Shown: piece by piece, positions 1,180 to 12,858 of the stretch
Position numbering within the stretch: the first letter of the stretch is position 1
Layout of the letters: the number at the start of each line of letters is the position of its first letter
Source of the DNA: a virus
IMG/VR virus record: IMGVR_UViG_3300027906_000015
Span: 1-59,181 of that record
Length of the DNA: 59,181 nucleotides
Strand: one strand, 5' to 3'
Position numbers and translations under genes: made by a program
Notes under the pieces: model-generated
The model's database searches: none
What the model was told of the DNA's origin: nothing
What the model saw: only the letters and a program-made list of their open reading frames with translations

Positions 1180-3786
1180 ATGGCATTAACAAAGATACCA
1201 GCACATTTAAGCTCAACACCGAGTATTTCGGATAGTGGAACATCAACCGCAATCACAATTGATTCAAGCGGTAATGTATCACTTGCTGGGAATTTAGCGG
1301 TAAGTGGTTCTACAACTACAGCAGATAACCTTAATTCAGTTGATAAAAATATAACCTTAAACTATCATGCATCAAATGATACTTCGGGTTCAGCTGATGG
1401 AGCTGGTATAACTATACAAGATGCAGTAGATGCTTCAACAAATGCATCTTTATATTGGAGAGCTTCAGACGATAAATTTATTTTCTCTCACCCATTAAGA
1501 ATGTTTGGTCAATTTGAATTACCAGATAATGTTAAATTAGTTGCAGGTGATGGTAATGATTTACAAATTTACCATGATGGTTCTCATAGTTATGTTAAAG
1601 ATAATGCACAAGGTAATTTAATACTTCAAGGTTCTAATTTAAGACTTGCTGAAACTGATGATACTTTATACGCATTTTTTACTAGTGGTGCTGGTGGAGA
1701 GTTTTACTATGATGGAAGTAAAAAGCTTGAAACAACAAGTACAGGAATACAAGTAACAGGCAACATCTCAAATACTTCTGGTAGCATGACTATAGACGTA
1801 GCAAGCCAAATTGTACTTGATGCTGATGGTGGACTAATACAACTTAAAGACGGCGGTACAGAATTTGCACAGTTAAAAAATAGTTCAAACGATTTTCAAA
1901 TTATCAGTATCGTAGATGACAAAGATATTATATTTAGAGGAAGTGACAACGGAACTTACTTCAATGCCCTTACCCTTGATATGTCAGATGCAGGGGCAGC
2001 TATTTTTGGAGGCGAAATAGTCGCAAACAAAGCCTTACGTTTACGAACAACAGATGACCAAGCTCAACAATGGTATGTCTATACTCATACAGATGATACG
2101 TTCCGTATTAATTACAATGGCGCGGGTTCAGACGTTTTAGTTATTGATACTAATGAAGACTCTACTTTCAATGGTGAGGTGACTATTAATGGTGGTTCTG
2201 ATGCTAACTTAAATTTAAAATCAGCTTCTTCAAGGTCCGGTGCATTCATAATGAAACCTGGCACAAGCACTGTAATGGGTTCGGCTTTAGTTTTAGCAGA
2301 TGAAAGTTATAGACTAGGTACAGCATCTAATTACCACCTACAGATGAATCAATCTGGTACAACTGTTATTAATGCAGATGGAGCTAATGTAGGTATAGGA
2401 ACTGCAAGTCCTGCTGCGAAATTAGACATAAGTGGTGACACTACTACTTGGGCAGGCATGTCCAAAATTTATTTTACTGATGTAAATTCAAATACAAGTA
2501 GTAGAAATTGGTCTATTGGGAATGGTGGTACTGCTTTTGGAGCATTATCTTTTATTGTCTCAAATGCAGCAGATGGAGTACCGGAAAACACAACTGGAAG
2601 TGCAGTTATGTCTATGGACGGGGTCAATAAGCGTGTTGGTATAAATGTAGCTCAACCATCAAAGGATTTAAGTGTAAGAGCTGCTAATGCTATAATCGCT
2701 GCAGAATCTACTGCAGATAGTCAAAGAATTGGATTTCAAGCTAAATATATAGAACACGGAAGCTTATACGGTAGTTTTGAATATACTACTGGGGATGCTC
2801 AATTATGGATTGATAATAATTTTACAGGAAATAATGGTGTTTACAGTAATATAAGATTTAGAAACAAAGAAAATGGGGGATCAACTCTAGTTGACCGTAT
2901 GATTATTGCGGGTTCAACTGGAAATGTAGGTATTGGAAATATTGAAGCTTCGCATAAACTTCATGTTGAAGCAAACGGGACTGGTGCTATTTCAGCGCTT
3001 CGTCTTGCAAATGAAAATACATCAGTAGGTGATGGGGCAAAACTTCTTTTTACTTCTGGAACTTCCACAAGTGGGGCAGGTATAGCAGGATATGGAACAG
3101 CTTTAAATGCAGCTGATTTAGTATTTTACGCTGGCGGGGATAACGAAAGAATGCGTATCCACGACAATGGTAGGGATTTTGATTTTAAATCAGACACAGT
3201 AGCTGGTTATACTCCGAATATAAATTTATACAGTATGACTACAGGCGCGTACTCTCCTCAAATTCATTTCTACACTAGGCATGTTACAGGAGGAGGCGAT
3301 TACCAGTGGCCAGCAGCTTCTATATTTACATCAGGTGCTTCTGGTTATTCAAGTGGAGCTTTATCAGGATATTTTAGAGTATATATTAGAGGTAAATTTG
3401 GAGAAAGCGCGGCTATAAATGCTTTAGATATAAATTCAAGTGGTTTAGTTTCAGGAGATTTAAATGATACATCTGATGTAGCGTTGAAAAAAGACATAAC
3501 TACTTTAAATGCCTCAGATAGTTTGACAGCTATTAAAGCTTTAAATCCTGTAACATTTAAATGGAAAGCAGATGACCGAGAAACTTCTGGGTTTATAGCA
3601 CAAGAGGTAGAAAAACATTTACCCAATGATGTAATAGGAGAAGATTGGAGGGCAGAAGATCCAGATTTAGAGAAAAATGATATAGGCTCAAAAGGTAAAG
3701 CAGTAAATACAGTAGGAATATTAGCCCATGCTGTTAAAGTAATACAAGAATTAGAAGCTAGAATAAAAGTTTTAGAGGATAAATAA
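1180..3786 (+). CDS. Tail fibre protein with C-terminal S74 chaperone domain
   Basis: This 868-residue virion protein has a long beta-rich shaft. The C-terminal region from about residue 764 ([17 protein letters not shown], then the [12 protein letters not shown] block) matches the Peptidase_S74 intramolecular chaperone family. In characterised members this domain trimerises, drives folding of the fibre and cuts itself off; the conserved Ser near the domain start (S in [12 protein letters not shown]) fits that scheme. The N-terminal region repeats the [13 protein letters not shown] type of motif found in other marine phage fibres. A coiled-coil tail closes the protein. It overlaps the next fibre gene by one base and is probably read from the late motif just upstream. 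Confidence 0.85.
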
Positions 3787-6485
3787 TGGCATATTCAAAA
3801 AATAGAAGAATAGCAGATTTAGTCGCATCAGACGGAACTATGGATGCGTCCAAATTAAAATCTGGTACAGTTACTCAAGCTCATTTACATTCATCACACG
3901 GTATTACTACAGCTCATATAGCTGAAGGTAGTAATAAATATTATACTGATGAAAGAGTAGATGATAGATCTAATTCTCTATTACAGGATGGTGCTAATAT
4001 ATCTCTTACATATGATGATTCAGCTGGCACACTTACCGTAGCAGCTACAGATACTAATACAACATATAGCGCTGGAACAGGATTAGCACTAAGTTCAACA
4101 ACATTCAGCTTATCACATTTAGGACTTCAATCGTTAAGTGATCCGAATGCTGATAGAATTGCATTTTGGGATGATTCAGCCGGTGCCTTTGCATGGTTAA
4201 CCATAGGATCTAATTTAACTTTATCTGGTACTACACTCTCCGGTGTAGCCGCTTATGGTGATTCAGATGTTGAATCTTATTTAGATTCAAATGGAACAAC
4301 ATTCCCAGATAATATAATGGCTCGATTTGGGTCTAGTAATGACTTTACTATAAAACATGATGGTAGTCATGCAAGATTAAATGTTGCTACAGGTAATTTT
4401 AACGTACAGACAAACGATTTTCATATTACAGATTCAAGTAATAGTTCTATAAGATTTAATGTTGACCATGATGGAGCCACTACACTATATCATAATGCTT
4501 CAGCAAAACTAGCTACTGCTTCAGATGGTATAGATGTTACTGGAAATACTAGTATGACAACTGGTCATTCAACTGGTAAATTTGCTGTTATGGCATCTGC
4601 AGTTCATGGTTCTTATGATTTTTACAATAATGGAACATCTTATTTTAATGGTGGTGTTGTTGTTGATGACCATTTACAAGTTACTGGAGGTAGTGCTCAA
4701 TTAACAGTTAATGGTAATGCTAGTATCACTGGTAATTTAACCGTAAGTGGTACAACTACAACTTTAAACACAGCCACATTAGAAGTTGCAGATTTAAATA
4801 TTGTAGTTGGTAAAAATGCTACAACAAGTTCAGCCACAAATGGAGCTGGATTAACATTCGGTGCTTGGTCATCGGGTACTATTCCTGCATTAATATGGCA
4901 TCATGGTAATAGTGCATTTAATTTTAATAAAGCTTTATCCGTAACTGGTAATATTGTAGTTACTGGAACAGTTGATGGAAGAGATATAGCTACTGATGGT
5001 ACTAAACTAGATGCAATAGAGGCAAGTGCTGATGTTACAGATGCTACAAACGTAGGAACAGCTTTAACAGCATTCAGCACAGGAACAGATACTGCTTCAA
5101 CAGATTTAATTCCATACTATGATGTAAGTGCATCAGCTTGGGAAAAAGGAACAGTAGCTAATGTAGCTTTACAAGGACCTACCGGATCAACAGGACCTAC
5201 TGGACCAACAGGACCGGCAGGACCTACGGGATCTACAGGATCAGCAGGTCCAACAGGACCAACAGGACCTTCAGGACCTTCAGGACCAGCAGGTAGTGAT
5301 GGAAATGATGGTGGAACTGGACCAACAGGTCCAACAGGACCCACTGGACCTTCAGGACCTACGGGACCAGCTGGTAGTGATGGAAGTGATGGAAGTGACG
5401 GAAGTGATGGTGGAACTGGACCGACCGGACCGACTGGGCCTACAGGACCAGCGGGAGGCACAGGACCCACCGGGCCTACAGGACCTACTGGACCATCAGG
5501 AACTAACGGAAGTAATGGTGGAACAGGACCTACAGGACCTACTGGGCCTACGGGACCGACCGGACCAAATGGAACAACAAGTGGTGTAGCAGTAGGACCA
5601 GCAACATTTTATGATTTCTATGGTACTGGAGGAAACTCTGGTGTACCAAATCATGCTTATGAGTTATATCAACAATCTGGTGGTTGGTCAAGTCCATTCC
5701 CTGACTTATTCATAGCATATCATACAGGTATTAGTCTTGGTGCTAATTCTAGTTATGATGGTATTAGATTCTATACTGATTATCCAATGTCAACTAGAGT
5801 ACTTCAAGTAAATGGTTCATCACACTATATCTATAAAGATGTTTGGATGCACACAGATGCTGGTGAAGGTATTTATTCATCTAGTCATAGTTTCCACTGG
5901 TACCCTAGAACTGTCGGTAGTTATGGATCAGCACAGTTAGGTGGTGCATCTGGTGGGTATTCTGGTATTGTGATGGACTCTGGTGGTGATGTCTGTATTG
6001 GTATGTTTGATACTGCAGGTAACGGTGGAACCTATAGACAAACTAATGGTAGATGGTATGACTATCATCATGTAAGTAATAATTGTACAGGTATTACTGC
6101 TTCAACTACTTCAAGTTCATATTCATTATATGTAACTGGCGCAATATATGCAACAGGTGATGTTGTTGGTTCTTCAGATAGAAGGTTAAAAAAGAATATA
6201 AATACTATTGAGAATGGTTTAGCTAAGGTCGAAAAACTAAGAGGTGTTACATACGAATGGAAAGACTCTGAAGAAACTGATTCAAAAAGTACAAACGTTA
6301 CGGAAGAAAGAATGGGACTTATCGCTCAGGAAGTTATAGATGTAATTCCTGAGGTAGTTACACATGATAAGGAAAATGATAGGTATGGTGTTTCATACGG
6401 TCATTTAACAGGATTACTTATTGAAGCAGTAAAAGATCTAAGCAATAAAGTTAAAGATTTAGAAAAAAAATTAGAGGAAAAATAA
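3786..6485 (+). CDS. Tail fibre protein with collagen-like stalk and S74 domain
   Basis: This 899-residue fibre has three parts: a beta-rich N-terminal region, a Gly-X-Y collagen-like stalk at about residues 462-598 (GPTGPTGP units with GSDGSDG inserts), and a globular region followed by an S74 chaperone domain from about residue 795 ([26 protein letters not shown]). It ends in a charged coiled coil. Phage collagen repeats form triple helices and are common in adhesins. The start codon overlaps the previous stop (TAATG), so translation is probably coupled. The tip domain between stalk and S74 is the likely receptor-binding part. Confidence 0.85.
5173..5580 (+). repeat. Collagen-like triplet repeat region
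   Basis: This in-gene tandem array has 9-base units resembling GGACCTACA, encoding Gly-Pro-Thr, interrupted by GATGGAAGT units encoding Asp-Gly-Ser. Wobble positions vary between copies, so selection seems to act on the protein repeat. The direct repeats could shorten or lengthen by recombination, changing stalk length. Long open frames on the other strand here are a by-product of the repeat. Confidence 0.85.
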
Positions 6486-6927: not shown

Positions 6928-7473
6928 ATGAGAGATATTTGGCAATTGTGGTCGGGAATTGTATCGGCCGAAGAGTGTGATTATATAATAAAAGCTGGGG
7001 AAGAAGCCCCAGAAGAAAAAGGAACAGTATATTCAAACCCTGAAGAAGGGGATGATGGTATAAGAAAAAGTAATATATCTTGGATTAGGAATAATCCAGA
7101 AATAGATAGAATCCAAAACTTCTTTTTTTCTGAAGCAAATAGAAATGCATTTGGATTTGATGTTAATTATATGCCAAGTGCCCAATTTGGAACTTATGGT
7201 AAAGGTGATTTTTATAATTGGCATCACGATGTAAATTGGGAATTAGATAGTGTATATGATAGAAAACTTTCTATTGTTATTCAATTAAGTGATCCAGATG
7301 ATTATGAAGGTGGGGATTTTGAATTTGGTAATATGTATGAACAACCAAAGGAGTTTAAAGAAAGAGGATCAGTTTTAGTTTTCCCTAGTTATATTCCACA
7401 TAGAGTGACAGAAATAACAAAGGGAACAAGAAAATCCTTAGTCAATTGGTTAGAAGGACCAAGGTGGAGATAA
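6928..7473 (+). CDS. 2-oxoglutarate/Fe(II)-dependent dioxygenase (PKHD type)
   Basis: This 181-residue enzyme has a double-stranded beta-helix fold. The iron ligands can be placed as H99 and D101 (in NWHHDVNW) and H158 (in YIPHRV), with R168 a few residues later as the 2-oxoglutarate anchor (TRKSLV). The strand LSIVIQLSDPDDYEGGDFEF is the usual prolyl-hydroxylase-like core. Enzymes of this type hydroxylate protein or nucleic acid side chains using O2 and 2-oxoglutarate. Such genes sit among tail genes in many marine T4-like phages. A role in modifying fibre proteins, including the collagen-like prolines next door, is attractive but unproven. Confidence 0.85.
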   Translation: MRDIWQLWSGIVSAEECDYIIKAGEEAPEEKGTVYSNPEEGDDGIRKSNISWIRNNPEIDRIQNFFFSEANRNAFGFDVNYMPSAQFGTYGKGDFYNWHHDVNWELDSVYDRKLSIVIQLSDPDDYEGGDFEFGNMYEQPKEFKERGSVLVFPSYIPHRVTEITKGTRKSLVNWLEGPRWR

Positions 7474-8202
7474 ATGACATTACAAAGTTCAGGCGCAATA
7501 TCGATAAGCCAGATAAAATCAGAATTAGGAAGTTCTAGTAATTCCCTAAGAACTTTATCGGCTGCAGCGGGTAAATCTGCCCCAGATGGAGTGAATGAAT
7601 TCTATGGTTATTCCCATGCTAATCCAATTCCTTATAGCTTATATACAAGAAATCACGGAAGTGGATTATGTATTCAAGCTTATAGATCAGTGACAGCTTC
7701 TATTGCAATGGTTTTCATCTATGTACCTTTTAGACTTTATAATGATGGAAGTAGTTTACATTGGCAAGTAAAAGAATCTAGTTCTTATTCAGCTCAAACT
7801 ACAAATAAATGGGATGCTAGTGGTAATGTTTCTACTGTAAGTACCTCTTGGGTAACATTAGCTTCTTGGACTGGTGCAACTGCAGGAATGGTTGATTGGT
7901 CTGGTTCAGCTTCCGGGGGCGGGGGTGGAACTTTTGGAACTGGATCTATAGGAGGAGATACGATACAAACTGGTGCAACATATGCAGCAGCTGATGCTAC
8001 TTGGAGAACATTAAGTAGTGGTCAATCAATGGGTTTTACTCTTCATGTTAGGAATACTGCAGAATGTTATGCTTCATCTACTAGATATTATACAGCAACA
8101 TTTCACAATATATACGGAAGAAGATCAGGGTATGATGATACCTCTATCGGATCTTTCCAGGCAAGGGGTGATGCAACTGCCACATCAAATAATTGTTTCT
8201 AA
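7474..8202 (+). CDS. Tail-associated structural protein, copy 1 of a duplicated pair
   Basis: This 242-residue Ser/Thr/Gly-rich protein begins with MTLQSSGAISISQIKSELG, an N-terminal pattern common in marine T4-like tail and baseplate decoration proteins. Its C-terminal half parallels the protein at 8588-9478: both carry a GQ(S/T)MG segment, a Cys-Tyr motif (ECYASSTR against ACYNSNTR), an RKSGY/RRSGY block, and end in SNNCF or SNNCL. It follows the oxygenase with no gap and overlaps the next gene by one base. It is probably a beta-sandwich virion protein exposed on the tail. Confidence 0.65.
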   Translation: MTLQSSGAISISQIKSELGSSSNSLRTLSAAAGKSAPDGVNEFYGYSHANPIPYSLYTRNHGSGLCIQAYRSVTASIAMVFIYVPFRLYNDGSSLHWQVKESSSYSAQTTNKWDASGNVSTVSTSWVTLASWTGATAGMVDWSGSASGGGGGTFGTGSIGGDTIQTGATYAAADATWRTLSSGQSMGFTLHVRNTAECYASSTRYYTATFHNIYGRRSGYDDTSIGSFQARGDATATSNNCF

Positions 8203-8579
8203 TGGATAAGTATAGATTAATACACGAAGAAGTTAAAGAGAATAGAATAGATGATTTAGTTCAATCTTTAACTATTGATATTATACTACAAAATGCAGAA
8301 AATGTAAACCAAAAAAATATAAAATATATTGATGAAAATGGAGATGAACAAACAGCACAACATTGGGATTATGAAAGTGCACCGGTAATATCAAATAGAA
8401 TAATTAATTATAATATCCCTTTTGAACATCAAACAAACCTAAGGAAAGGAACAGAACATCCCCATAATCATGAAGAAGAGATGAAATATCAAGAAAGATT
8501 TAGAAGCTGGGTAGAAGGTTATCAAGCAACAGAAGAATATATCACAGCAATGCGTGATTTAAACAATAAGGTGTTATAA
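8202..8579 (+). CDS. Small partner protein of the duplicated tail module, copy 1 (125 aa)
   Basis: The ATG at 8202 overlaps the preceding stop (TAATG), which is better supported than the longer TTG frame upstream. The protein is acidic and soluble (starts MDKYRLIHEEVKENRID) with a helical C-terminal end. The same arrangement recurs at 9478-9843, where another small protein overlaps the end of the paralogous large gene and shares an ISNRIINYNIPFE / ASWKIINREPLIG type of core and a C-terminal W..G...T/D..Y..A...L pattern. It may be a cognate chaperone or stalk partner of the larger protein. The function is unknown. Confidence 0.55.
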   Translation: MDKYRLIHEEVKENRIDDLVQSLTIDIILQNAENVNQKNIKYIDENGDEQTAQHWDYESAPVISNRIINYNIPFEHQTNLRKGTEHPHNHEEEMKYQERFRSWVEGYQATEEYITAMRDLNNKVL

Positions 8580-8587: not shown

Positions 8588-9478
8588 ATGGCTATACCAA
8601 CAACAGGAAATATATCAATTAAAACAGCAGCTGGGTCAGACAGATCCATAGACACTGCCGTAACTTCTACTAGTAGTGGAAGCTTAGTAACATTAAGTCA
8701 AAACTCTATAGAACATACTGGTGGAAGATCAACAATTACAAATGATACAAATAGTGCACCTTATAGTATGTTAGAATTTTCTGGTTATCAACACGAAATT
8801 GCTTTCCCAACAACAGGAAGATATCAATGTCAAAGAACAGACCAATCTGGTTATACTATTTATGGAGAGTCTAGTATAACATCTGGTGAACCACATGCCC
8901 GAGCATTAATATTATTTGCATTATATAATCATCCAAACCAAAATTCTGTTTATTTAGTATGTAAGAGAGGATACTGGGATACAGGGGATGATAATGCATA
9001 TGGATTGATGAGCAGTAGTTATTATTTAAACGGTAATACATCTGGTGTTGCAACATCCGGTAGTACAAGTTTTAGTGGATTTAATAATCAGACAAATCCA
9101 GGGGGAACAGGTTGGGAAGTACTTTGGTATATAAGTGATCAAGTTGATAGTGGTATTGAACCAAGCGCATTTAAAGTTAATTGGTCGGCCTCATCTTCTG
9201 GATCTGGTGGAAGTACTGGAATTATTGGAACTAGTAGTGCTTATGGATCAAGTTTTACATATGCTGCAGCTGATAATACTTGGCAAACATTAGGTAATGG
9301 TCAAACTATGGGATGGTACATATACGCACAATCTTTTGCAGCATGTTATAATTCAAACACAAGACATTCTTATGGAACTTTTGAAATTGATGCTAGAAAA
9401 TCAGGCTATGTCGATACAAGAGTAGTTAATTTTGATGCTCATATGAAAGCTACAGCCATTTCAAATAATTGTTTATAA
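8588..9478 (+). CDS. Tail-associated structural protein, copy 2 of a duplicated pair
   Basis: This 296-residue protein is paralogous in its C-terminal half to the protein at 7474-8202 (shared TYAAAD..W.TL..GQ.MG block and SNNC ending) and diverged in its N-terminal half (starts MAIPTTGNISIKTAAGS). It is rich in Ser, Gly, Tyr and Asn, typical of beta-structured virion surface proteins. It has its own late promoter 5 bases upstream and overlaps its small partner gene by one base. The duplication with divergence suggests two related tail decorations or host-recognition modules. Confidence 0.65.
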   Translation: MAIPTTGNISIKTAAGSDRSIDTAVTSTSSGSLVTLSQNSIEHTGGRSTITNDTNSAPYSMLEFSGYQHEIAFPTTGRYQCQRTDQSGYTIYGESSITSGEPHARALILFALYNHPNQNSVYLVCKRGYWDTGDDNAYGLMSSSYYLNGNTSGVATSGSTSFSGFNNQTNPGGTGWEVLWYISDQVDSGIEPSAFKVNWSASSSGSGGSTGIIGTSSAYGSSFTYAAADNTWQTLGNGQTMGWYIYAQSFAACYNSNTRHSYGTFEIDARKSGYVDTRVVNFDAHMKATAISNNCL

Positions 9479-9843
9479 TGAATTATCATTTTGATATAGA
9501 ATTAACACCCCAAAGAGATGGGAGTGATGTAGTTAAAACTGTAAAGGTTAAAGTTAATCGTTGGACTAATGAAGGGGAAATGACTCAAAGAGATAGTACA
9601 TACGTATCAAACTCTGGACTGAAAGCTTCATGGAAAATAATTAATAGAGAACCGCTTATAGGTTCAGAAGAATTTACATATACTGTACCAACCGATGATC
9701 AGACAGATATAATACCTACTGGTTATCCAAGGGCAGAAACAGATAATCATAAAAATTGGGCTGAGTTTTATAATAAATGGGAACTTGGTATAATAGAAGA
9801 TAGTGGATATTTAGCCGCGGTAGAAGAATTAAAGAAATTATGA
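9478..9843 (+). CDS. Small partner protein of the duplicated tail module, copy 2 (121 aa)
   Basis: It starts at the ATG overlapping the preceding TAA, by the same TAATG coupling as copy 1. The protein (starts MNYHFDIELTPQRDGSDVVK) begins with beta strands and ends in a helical segment (WELGIIEDSGYLAAVEELKKL). Similarity to the 125-residue protein at 8202-8579 is weak but the gene order and the C-terminal layout are the same. It is probably a partner or chaperone of the larger protein encoded just before it; no family is recognised. Confidence 0.55.
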   Translation: MNYHFDIELTPQRDGSDVVKTVKVKVNRWTNEGEMTQRDSTYVSNSGLKASWKIINREPLIGSEEFTYTVPTDDQTDIIPTGYPRAETDNHKNWAEFYNKWELGIIEDSGYLAAVEELKKL

Positions 9844-9871: not shown

Positions 9872-10957
9872 ATGGCTAAACCAAATTCAAGAGCAACATT
9901 AATATCATATGCTAAGAGAGCGTTAGGCCATCCTGTAATCGAAATTAATGTAGATGATGATCAGGTAGATGATAGAATTGATGAAGGATTACAATTTTAT
10001 CAAGAGTATCATGCTGATGCAGTTGAAAAAGTTTATTTAAAACACTTAGTATCTCCAACGGATCAAACTAATGGTTATATTTCAATACCAGAATTAGTTA
10101 CAAATGTTGTTAGAGTATTTCCACTAAGAGATGTTAATAATTCATCTGTAAGTATGTTTGATGCTAAATATCAAATGCACTTAAATGATATGTTCTCATT
10201 AGGATATATGGGATCACTATTAGAATATGAATTAAGTCAACAATGGTTATCAATGTTAGATATGATTATAGATTCAAATGATAAACATATAGATTTTAAT
10301 AGACATAGAAATACATTAAGAATTGATATGGATTGGTCTGAAGAAACAGATGCAGTTGCAGCAGAAACCGTTGTGGTAAAAGTTGTATCTAATAAATTTA
10401 CATGGAATGGCGAATCCAATCCAGAGAAAGCTTTAAGTAAAGGTGTGGTATATACCTTTGACCAATCTGACGCATCAAATAACGGACACGCATTAAAATT
10501 TTCTGAAACAGCTGATGGAACACATGGATCAGGAACAGAGTATACAAGTGGAGTGGTTGTTACTGGAACAGCTGGTCAAGCTGGAGCTAAAGTAACATTT
10601 ACAATACCAGAAGATGCACCTGATACACTATATTACTATTGTGGAAGTCATTCTAATATGGGTAATAAGCTTACATTAGCTATTAATTCAACATATCTAG
10701 TATTAGAATGTTATAGAATATTAGATCCAAATACATATACAGATGTATATAATGATTATTATTTAAAGAAATATGTTACTGCTCTTATTAAACAACAATG
10801 GGGACAAAACTTAATTAAATTTGAAGGGATGCAAATGCCTGGCGGAGTTACCTTCAACGGAAGACAAATATATGATGATGCAACTGCTGATTTAGAAAAA
10901 TTAGTAGAAGAAGCTAGGCTCAATTGGGAAGAACCGATTGACTTTATGACGGGATAA
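9872..10957 (+). CDS. 13: Neck protein gp13 with an inserted cupredoxin-like domain
   Basis: The N-terminal 155 residues (ALGHPVIEINVDDDQVDDR, LDMIIDSNDKHIDFNRHRNT) and the C-terminal 95 residues (YLKKYVTALIKQQWGQNLIK, MQMPGGVTFNGRQIYDDA) match T4-like gp13. gp13 forms part of the neck that closes the filled head and joins it to the tail. Between them, residues about 158-270 form an extra beta-rich domain. It has the ligand layout of a type 1 copper site: H206 (NNGHALKF), C257 and H260 (YYYCGSHSNMG) and M263. The fold call is from motif pattern, and copper binding is inference. It starts 28 bases after the previous gene with a good ribosome-binding site. Confidence 0.88.
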   Translation: MAKPNSRATLISYAKRALGHPVIEINVDDDQVDDRIDEGLQFYQEYHADAVEKVYLKHLVSPTDQTNGYISIPELVTNVVRVFPLRDVNNSSVSMFDAKYQMHLNDMFSLGYMGSLLEYELSQQWLSMLDMIIDSNDKHIDFNRHRNTLRIDMDWSEETDAVAAETVVVKVVSNKFTWNGESNPEKALSKGVVYTFDQSDASNNGHALKFSETADGTHGSGTEYTSGVVVTGTAGQAGAKVTFTIPEDAPDTLYYYCGSHSNMGNKLTLAINSTYLVLECYRILDPNTYTDVYNDYYLKKYVTALIKQQWGQNLIKFEGMQMPGGVTFNGRQIYDDATADLEKLVEEARLNWEEPIDFMTG

Positions 10958-10960
10958 ACA

Positions 10961-11890
10961 ATGGCTAGGAACGTATACTTCAGCCAAGCCGTTAAGTCCG
11001 AACAAAATCTTTACGAAGACTTAATCATAGAATCTTTAAAGATTTATGGACAAGACGCTTATTATCTACCTAGGACTATAATTACTAGAGATGATGTACT
11101 TGGGGAAGCTACTGGATCTAAATTTGATGATGCGTATATTATTGAAACCTATATTGAAGATATAGAAGGATTCGCAGGTTCAGGAGATTTATATTCTAAG
11201 TTTGGTCTAGAAATTAGAGACGAAGCAACATTCGTAATTTCTAAAAGACAATGGAACAAACTTATTGGTGTTTGGAATAACAGTGTTGATTATCCTATTC
11301 CTAATGAAGGAGATATTATATTCCTTCCAATGTCAAATAAATTCTTTGAGATTATGTTCGTTGAACATGAACAACCATTTTATCAATTATCTAACTTACC
11401 AGTATATAAATTACAATGTAGCTTATATGAATATAATGAAGAAGATTTCGAAACTGGTGTTGATGCAATTGATCTTACACAACAAAAATTATCTTATCAA
11501 CAAACAATAGATTATAGTACATCAAGCAATGCACATTATAGTATTGGAGAAATAGTTTCACAGGTAGTTTCAAGTGGTATTACAGTAACTGCTGAGGTTC
11601 AAACTGTTGATAAAACTTCAACTACTGCAGGATCAATTACAGTATCTAACATCGGGGTTACGGGAACAACCACAGCAACAGACTTTATTGTTTCAAGTAC
11701 TATACCATTAACAGGGAATACATCATCAACATCATGTAATATTATCAAGATATATGATATAGGTGATAATTCAGAAAATGTAATGCCATCGGATGGTGGA
11801 GCTGAGAACGTAGCATTTGAAGTAAGTGCAGATGGATTCTTAGATTTCAGCGAAGCAAATCCGTTTGGCGACCCATCGGATAACTACTAA
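10961..11890 (+). CDS. 14: Neck protein gp14
   Basis: This is the 309-residue gp14 homologue, which with gp13 completes the head-to-tail connector. Family landmarks include the N-terminus MARNVYFSQAVKSEQNLYED, the ALIYYLPRT-like IYGQDAYYLPRTIITRDDVLG block and the FELQYLP-type region around FYQLSNLPVYKLQCSLYEYNEEDFETG. A Thr/Ser-rich beta segment at about residues 195-265 looks like an added surface module relative to the compact family core. The gene starts three bases after gp13 and overlaps gp15 by one base. Confidence 0.88.
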   Translation: MARNVYFSQAVKSEQNLYEDLIIESLKIYGQDAYYLPRTIITRDDVLGEATGSKFDDAYIIETYIEDIEGFAGSGDLYSKFGLEIRDEATFVISKRQWNKLIGVWNNSVDYPIPNEGDIIFLPMSNKFFEIMFVEHEQPFYQLSNLPVYKLQCSLYEYNEEDFETGVDAIDLTQQKLSYQQTIDYSTSSNAHYSIGEIVSQVVSSGITVTAEVQTVDKTSTTAGSITVSNIGVTGTTTATDFIVSSTIPLTGNTSSTSCNIIKIYDIGDNSENVMPSDGGAENVAFEVSADGFLDFSEANPFGDPSDNY

Positions 11891-12858
11891 TGTTTGGATC
11901 ACACTTTTATCACGCAACAATGAGAAAATCCGTAGCGGTTTTCGGTACTATGTTTAACAATATATCAGTTGTTAGATTAAATGGTTCTGGTGGTATATTA
12001 AATCAAATTAAAGTTCCATTAGCTTATGGACCAAAAGAAAAATTCTTATCTAGGATAGACCAAGATACCCAAAGCGATGCAAGTATGGCAATTAAATTGC
12101 CTCGTATGTCCTTTGAAATAACATCACTATCTGTTGATACTAATAAAAAAGAAAATAAAAAGAATAAAATACATTATCAACATTCAACAGATGATAGTAA
12201 AAGACAGGTTATTCAAGCTCAAGTACCGTACAATATAGGTATGTCATTAAGTATAATGACCAAAAACCAAGATGATGGATTACAAATATTAGAACAAATA
12301 GTTCCATTCTTTCAACCCGATTATACAGTAACAATAAAACCTATTGATGGTTGGACTAATTTTAAACAAGATGTTCCTATCATTTTAAATGATGTAAATA
12401 TTGAAGATAGTTATGATGGTGATTATGTTACTAGAAGAGTATTAACTTATAATCTAAACTTTACTATGAAAATGACATTCTATTCTGGAACAACAGAAAT
12501 GAAAACTATTAAGAATATTGATATTGATTGGTTAAATAAAGCAGATAATATGTTCTTAGAAGGACAAAATTTTGAAGTTAATCCTTCAACAGCTGATAAA
12601 GAAGATAATTGGACAGTAACTTCTACAATGGATTATTTAAATGTACCTAGTACAATGACCTTAACATTATCAAGTGTTAGTGGTACATTCCAAGTTGCTG
12701 AAACAGTAACAGGTGGAACATCTGGTACTACAGCAAAAATTACTAATATATCTGGAACTACAGTTACTGTTTCAGATCCTACTGGATATTTCCAACAAAG
12801 TGAAACTATAACTGGAGGAACAAGTACAGCTACTGCCACATTAAATCAAGCTGTATAA
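11890..12858 (+). CDS. 15: Tail sheath stabiliser / tail terminator gp15
   Basis: This 322-residue protein is homologous to T4 gp15, which caps the tail tube and sheath before joining the head. It is recognised by MFGSHFYHATMRKSVAVFG, the PLAYGPKEKFLSRIDQD block and RRVLTYNLNFTMKMTFY. The last 70 residues or so carry repeats of the type GTFQVAETVTGGTSGTTAKI and GYFQQSETITGGTSTATATL, which lie beyond the usual domain and look like a repeated beta decoration. Its start overlaps the gp14 stop by one base. Confidence 0.88.
   Translation: MFGSHFYHATMRKSVAVFGTMFNNISVVRLNGSGGILNQIKVPLAYGPKEKFLSRIDQDTQSDASMAIKLPRMSFEITSLSVDTNKKENKKNKIHYQHSTDDSKRQVIQAQVPYNIGMSLSIMTKNQDDGLQILEQIVPFFQPDYTVTIKPIDGWTNFKQDVPIILNDVNIEDSYDGDYVTRRVLTYNLNFTMKMTFYSGTTEMKTIKNIDIDWLNKADNMFLEGQNFEVNPSTADKEDNWTVTSTMDYLNVPSTMTLTLSSVSGTFQVAETVTGGTSGTTAKITNISGTTVTVSDPTGYFQQSETITGGTSTATATLNQAV

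Follow-up and report, generated by a model that had tools for sequence, protein, structure and literature searches.

A predicted cupredoxin domain with a complete set of type 1 copper ligands is inserted in a gp13-type phage neck protein

The gp13-type neck protein encoded in the virus record IMGVR_UViG_3300027906_000015 is interrupted by a domain of about 115 residues, in which a histidine is followed by a cysteine, a second histidine and a methionine, in the order of the ligands of type 1 copper proteins. This raises the questions of what the domain is, whether it binds a metal and what it could do on a phage neck. We analysed the whole stretch of 59,181 nucleotides, called here the window, which is a complete virus record in itself. 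The genes and domain limits considered are the following.

9872..10957, + strand: gp13-type neck protein (head-tail adaptor Ad2), 361 aa, identified by PHROG 211 and by its fold match to T4 gp13
about 10337..10693, + strand: inserted stretch, aa 156-274, in place of a 9-residue hairpin, delimited in the gp13 alignment
10355..10687, + strand: core of the cupredoxin-fold domain, aa 162-272, delimited with AlphaFold, Foldseek and VIA
10961..11890, + strand: gp14-like neck protein (head closure Hc2), adjoining gp13, identified by PF11649 (E 2e-33)

Membership of the host protein in the gp13 family (PHROG 211) is indicated by its profile, its fold and the gp14-like gene next to it. In a profile search, PHROG 211 'head-tail adaptor Ad2' matched residues 2-353 with an E of 2.6e-37. 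The full-length AlphaFold model, with a pLDDT of 75 overall and a scaffold that is only partly well modelled and poor in its middle, matched the solved structures of T4 gp13 (9mkb, 9lu4-9lu7) with Foldseek E values down to 1e-11 and a VIA Z score of about 16. The gp14-like protein is expected to form the partner ring of the window gp13. The surroundings are a T4-like structural cluster comprising terminase, sheath, portal and major head protein genes, and gene order is shared with T4 as is the scaffold fold. In the T4 virion, gp13 forms a dodecameric ring, in which the swing domain contacts the portal and gp23 and domain III binds fibritin; segment 193-238 is fibritin-binding (PMC12270204).

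The limits of the insert were determined in an alignment of 44 gp13 proteins, 29 without and 15 with an insert. Between W155 and Y275 there are 120 residues in the window protein and 113-128 in the insert-bearing proteins, as compared to exactly 9 in all 29 insert-less homologs. The insertion is flanked by a strand ending in MDW and by another starting with Y-[LI]-[VI]-x-E. Scaffold identity to insert-less forms is 54-73%, and the domain has therefore been cleanly inserted into a hairpin which, in T4 terms, would be part of the swing domain, in the peripheral ring of the gp13 dodecamer. A first-pass annotation of the DNA had already described gp13 as split in this way; its limits, 10343-10681, took in most of the insert and fell slightly short of the full stretch at both ends. 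Among 50,697 phage records, none had a single gp13 place covering 80% of the query, so that the insertion has so far been seen here only in metagenomic contigs; no cultured phage in the collection has a cupredoxin insert in gp13. In a domain tree from which the ligand columns were left out, and which is short of columns, the gp13 cupredoxins cluster together with a support of 83, in keeping with a single acquisition. The insert is under purifying selection, weaker than that on the scaffold (dN/dS of 0.10-0.35 in ligand-bearing pairs, versus 0.05-0.12 for the remaining gp13); it is constrained but faster evolving, as for an exposed part.

An AlphaFold model of the domain alone, built from an alignment of 102 copies, reached a pLDDT of 93 and a pTM of 0.85. 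The best 20 Foldseek matches in the PDB were all cupredoxin-fold copper proteins, including rusticyanin (E 6e-4), amicyanin (E 2e-3), the cupredoxin domain of a three-domain nitrite reductase, pseudoazurin, laccase and nitrous oxide reductase. With VIA, the best match was the cupredoxin domain of a copper nitrite reductase (2.4 Å over 96 residues), with a Z score of 9.0 that is above, but not far above, the scores of common sandwiches. The predicted model is a Greek-key beta-sandwich matched over the whole domain, as in the cupredoxin superfamily. Rusticyanin (1rcy, 2cak) and the Hyphomicrobium copper nitrite reductase domain (2dv6) are the closest in structure (E 6e-4, Z about 8-9, 96-103 residues at 2.4-3.0 Å); however, they are only 11-22% identical to the window domain and are periplasmic electron carriers or enzyme domains.

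Sequence links to known cupredoxins are more distant. The window copy has no significant match in Pfam or NCBIfam and does not reach the cut-off of Pfam Copper-bind (PF00127), which 9 of 31 family members match weakly (best E 0.002). A direct link by sequence to solved cupredoxins was sought and none was found; an intermediate was needed, L309, a cellular member from a Woeseiaceae genome. L309 scores 24.0 bits against Copper-bind when the region is scored and 20.4 in a whole-protein scan, the cut-off being 21.2, and in the PDB it matches plastocyanins best (E from 8e-4), with the Cys and the second His aligned. A single profile-profile comparison with pseudoazurin-like proteins from the same cellular genomes was weak (23% probability, E 9e-4), with C, H and M aligned. 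Because the window copy lacks a Pfam match of its own and is linked only through L309, we file it as a cupredoxin fold with a type 1 ligand set, and not as a member of PF00127. It shares with amicyanin and pseudoazurin the fold and an upstream His followed by C-x2-H-x2-M, to which YQCTPHAMM of the pseudoazurin-like proteins is comparable. Unlike them, it belongs to a virion protein, has no signal peptide and falls below the Pfam threshold. Furthermore, the family shows a conserved G-T-E-Y-T-[TS]-G-V stretch that was not seen in the aligned cupredoxins.

Four residues of the domain are the predicted metal ligands.

10487..10489, + strand: H206, predicted first His ligand, in an H-x3-F context as in the plastocyanins aligned to L309, from sequence and ligand-column conservation
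10640..10642, + strand: C257, predicted Cys ligand and the only Cys of the domain, from sequence, model and conservation
10649..10651, + strand: H260, predicted second His ligand, from sequence and conservation
10658..10660, + strand: M263, predicted axial Met ligand, from sequence and conservation

In the model, H206 (domain residue 49) is located just ahead of strand 51-54, and C257 closes the penultimate strand (95-100 in domain numbering), with H260 and M263 in the loop that leads to the last strand (108-114). As modelled, this is the arrangement of type 1 copper proteins, with one His followed by Cys, His and Met in the loop after the penultimate strand. The first-pass annotation had named these four residues in type 1 order and spacing, and had left the cupredoxin fold to be checked by structure prediction and fold comparison; both readings held. 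The C-x2-H-x2-M spacing, which we take to be that of amicyanin, occurs at only two other places in a six-frame translation of the window, both in stop-broken frames, and no further copy of the cupredoxin-like domain was found there. The residue after the first His, usually Asn in cupredoxins, is Pro or Ala in this family, and HMMER and hhalign set the first His 2 or 3 residues off. Two other assignments were discarded. H218 is a conserved His, but it is still present in ligand-less copies such as L104. An intradomain disulphide involving C257 was rejected because each of the 83 four-ligand copies has exactly one Cys per domain; the only other Cys of gp13, C280, is in a scaffold strand where Cys is frequent in insert-less gp13s also.

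Conservation of the ligands was evaluated on IMG/VR copies gathered in two ways, by a whole-domain search and by a DNA pattern for G-T-E-Y-T-T-x-V-T, which contains no ligand. Among 101 non-redundant viral copies, all four ligands are kept in 83, one in 7 and none in 11, with no copy keeping two or three. If the ligands were independent, about 50 copies would have four and 0.07 none. The 75 copies fetched only by the pattern, irrespective of ligands, gave the same picture (60 with four, 6 with one, 9 with none). The mean correlation was 0.87 among the four ligand columns as compared to 0.11 for other pairs of conserved columns, and in 20,000 random draws of four columns this level was never reached. 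On the domain tree, in which one copy scored as ligand-less (L129) is a poorly aligned fragment, at least five changes of ligand state fall on well-supported branches, and parsimony gives 10. The four ligands are thus kept together or lost together, repeatedly, as one would expect if selection acted on a metal site. In ligand-less copies the remainder of the domain is still conserved. Two of them are found in gp13: L008 (4484-4789) retains only the first His and L017 (2390-2701) retains none, and they offer natural metal-free comparators for the gp13 domain. Taken from sequence, the all-or-none pattern suggests that most copies have a use for the metal, and the ligand-less ones that the module can be useful without it. 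Metal binding by the window domain is probable.

The same domain is widespread outside gp13. The first-pass annotation had noted that similar segments seem to recur in marine phage structural proteins, and this proved correct, with more than 100 homologous copies of the domain. By tblastn, 137 annotated phage records carry the domain, nearly all from marine hosts or marine samples, with Synechococcus, Prochlorococcus, Pelagibacter and Methylophilales among the hosts or groups; the proteins are annotated as tail fibre, baseplate wedge, gp9 connector, virion structural or hypothetical protein. Four phage proteins were checked for ligands. Full sets were found in S-TIM5, in Pelagibacter phage Mosig and in gp9 of P-RSM4, and of the two copies in the gp10-type protein of P-RSM4, one is full and the other lacks Cys and Met. 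Each of these proteins thus has at least one full-ligand copy of the family found in the window gp13; however, they are tail fibre, baseplate or portal-adjacent proteins, annotated just as structural or tail. In the phage Mosig (L312:229-1465), whose host is not a cyanobacterium, genes for heme oxygenase and phycocyanobilin:ferredoxin oxidoreductase directly precede the neck gene. Proteins of about 3,000 residues with six cupredoxin-like copies, of which only some have ligands, are encoded in L225 (1098-8633, - strand) and L140. The viral predicted-structure library BFVD contains the same family, mostly in cyanophages, together with two single-domain pithovirus proteins from LCPAC records (A0A481Z6J5 and A0A481Z7Q7, 124 and 133 residues), which match the domain model with E values of 2e-6 and 8e-6.

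Beyond what the first-pass annotation had covered, the domain is also a cellular family, found in predicted lipoproteins of marine bacteria and archaea. In GTDB genomes, the best 80 of 145 loci include Marine Group II archaea, SAR86, other marine gammaproteobacteria, flavobacteria and Pelagibacteraceae. Part of these contigs could be of viral origin; long ones, like the 1.19 Mb contig of L298, are cellular. Several cellular members are short proteins with an apparent lipoprotein signal, judged by eye, followed by the domain, and others carry the domain at the C-terminus of a protein with collagen-like or cadherin-like repeats. Apparent lipoproteins, with one domain each, alone or after such repeats, were seen in SAR86 (L273, L277, L285), gammaproteobacteria (L271, L246, L261) and Marine Group II archaea (L233, L247, L235). 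The cellular copies are apparently a surface protein family of ocean microbes, for which we found no Pfam entry of its own. In phages, the domain is a mobile module of marine tail, baseplate and neck proteins. That the insert is beyond chance is confirmed by its more than 100 homologues, by ligands conserved as a set and by the cupredoxin fold obtained with AlphaFold and Foldseek.

Other gp13s carry unrelated modules in other loops, a further point that the first reading had not included. About 75 extra residues are present near residue 64 in seven of them (L363:55-1029, L364, L365, L370, L375, L376, L383), and about 120 in the same loop of the L360 protein (3001-4104). The former insert is a repeat-like FxVGExxTGGTSGAxA module, and that of L360 is longer and beta-rich. 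In the gp13s of L327 (1185-2138), L330, L326 and L336, about 70 extra residues follow the strand after the cupredoxin site, as a TLTGNTSSNTVVGTxTxF module after the last strand. The gp13 ring thus serves different lineages as a platform for mounting modules of different kinds. T4 gp13 has no cupredoxin domain, as the first-pass annotation had stated, and has instead its own fibritin-binding segment 193-238. By our reading this segment would be located one loop beyond the cupredoxin site, in the same loop as the L327-type module. MAFFT set part of it at the cupredoxin loop, an alignment that we rejected, since equating the T4 strand IIVE with the marine LVLE/IIVE moves the segment one loop later.

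We consider it likely that the insert is a cupredoxin module with intact type 1 ligands, displayed at the head-tail junction for adhesion or docking, with a selection-kept metal site that is filled after assembly or lysis. The site of acquisition would be the last beta-hairpin in gp13's peripheral (swing) domain, and the module would be displayed around the head-tail junction, in up to 12 copies per virion if gp13 is dodecameric as in T4. We infer outward display from the peripheral place of this domain on the ring in T4 and from how varied the modules tolerated by gp13 are; since gp13 takes different modules in other loops, display on the neck is the likely role. The domain would then serve as a surface module for adhesion or docking, common to its tail, neck and cell-surface versions. 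Bacterial cytoplasm contains little free copper. The metal would be copper, and because phage proteins fold in that copper-poor compartment, the site would most likely be filled after assembly or lysis. The metal could tune partner binding, bring copper to the host or take part in redox chemistry. It would be dispensable for the basic role of the module, as ligand-less copies persist, also in gp13.

Alternatively, the domain might brace the neck against the capsid vertex or dock neck fibres, and not face the outside world. Going by the order of elements and not by superposition, the hairpin that receives the insert, located between the last two strands ahead of the next helix, is similar to the head-joining loop in neck 1 of phage Milano (PMC10491603), and the following loop in T4 is the one that holds fibritin, in a protein whose swing domain also makes contact with the portal and gp23 (PMC12270204). 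However, such a clamp would be senseless in the tail fibres, baseplate proteins and cell-surface lipoproteins that bear the same domain, and most gp13s do without it. We regard this function as possible but doubtful.

It is unlikely that the fold is simply a sturdy, metal-free beta-sandwich for adhesion or display, with ligands that are leftovers or needed for folding. Ligand-less copies of several lineages do keep the remaining domain and the cytoplasm is poor in copper; nevertheless, four residues distant in sequence are kept or lost jointly (83 versus 18 copies, with nothing between), whereas leftovers would decay singly, and the window copy has all four. The metal-free state, which the first-pass annotation had allowed for, may thus apply to relatives that lost the site, such as L008 and L017, while the all-or-none pattern favours a working site in the window copy.

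Virion copper could also act as a lure, aiding binding to copper-uptake or copper-storing proteins of the host surface, as a counterpart of the Trojan-horse role proposed for the iron-binding HxH motifs of phage tail fibres (PMC11705849). The ligand set is kept by selection and the domain is frequent in host-contact proteins, but the neck is not a host-contact tip and ligand-less copies would be blind. To our knowledge there is no host receptor for such a lure, which we find improbable. Very unlikely is a protective redox function, in which type 1 copper would clear oxidants such as superoxide in the vicinity of the sealed genome and so prolong virion life in sunlit water: the ligand set is retained and the relatives indicate a marine setting, but we saw no sign of a partner or of an open coordination site, and an amicyanin-like ligand set suits electron transfer. 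An immunoglobulin-like or carbohydrate-binding beta-sandwich of chance likeness, as could be suspected from the top Pfam match of the window copy (CBM_4_9, an insignificant E of 0.05), is disfavoured to the point of being hardly credible, given the fold search, the ligand set and a score of L309 above the Copper-bind cut-off.

If the metal site of the cupredoxin module is filled, the virions of many marine phages are copper proteins. A copper nitrite reductase is known from viruses, where it is a metabolic gene (PMC8115048). The HxH iron sites, shown for T4 gp37 and proposed for marine tail fibres, are virion metal sites too, but they are octahedral His sites of a trimeric fibre, with no cupredoxin fold, Cys or Met (PMC11705849). 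We found no account of virion cupredoxin domains in the open-access literature; subscription papers were outside the search, so an earlier description is possible. Tentatively, and with less than even confidence, we suggest that marine phages as a group may put type 1 copper sites in their virions (neck, baseplate and fibres), with a module common to surface lipoproteins of the community, and use copper for attachment or particle survival. Copper would then join the iron already proposed for tail fibres and give chemical access to attachment in phages that are difficult to work with. Moreover, part of the organically bound copper in sea water would be a structured pool made up of phage particles, which bears on copper speciation. 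The question is directly testable, since the domain is present in the cultured phages P-RSM4, S-TIM5 and Mosig.

Several neighbours of gp13 in the window also deserve mention. The gp14-like protein has an additional Thr/Ser-rich C-terminal part past its T4_neck-protein match (10-188). The next gene (11890-12858), gp15-type by position only, ends in ETVTGGTSGTTAKI and ETITGGTSTATATL repeats that resemble the module inserted in the L363-type gp13s. Upstream of gp13, two gene pairs that look similar, each with one larger and one smaller member (7474-8202 with 8193-8579, and 8588-9478 with 9469-9843), occupy the place of the fibritin gene in T4, and their larger genes have look-alike ends (YTATFHNIYGRRSGYDD / YGTFEIDARKSGYVD). 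A 2OG-Fe(II) oxygenase gene (PHROG 61) is located at 6928-7473, within the structural gene cluster. Two large fibre-like proteins (1180-3786 and 3786-6485) each have a terminal intramolecular chaperone (Peptidase_S74), and the second contains collagen repeats.
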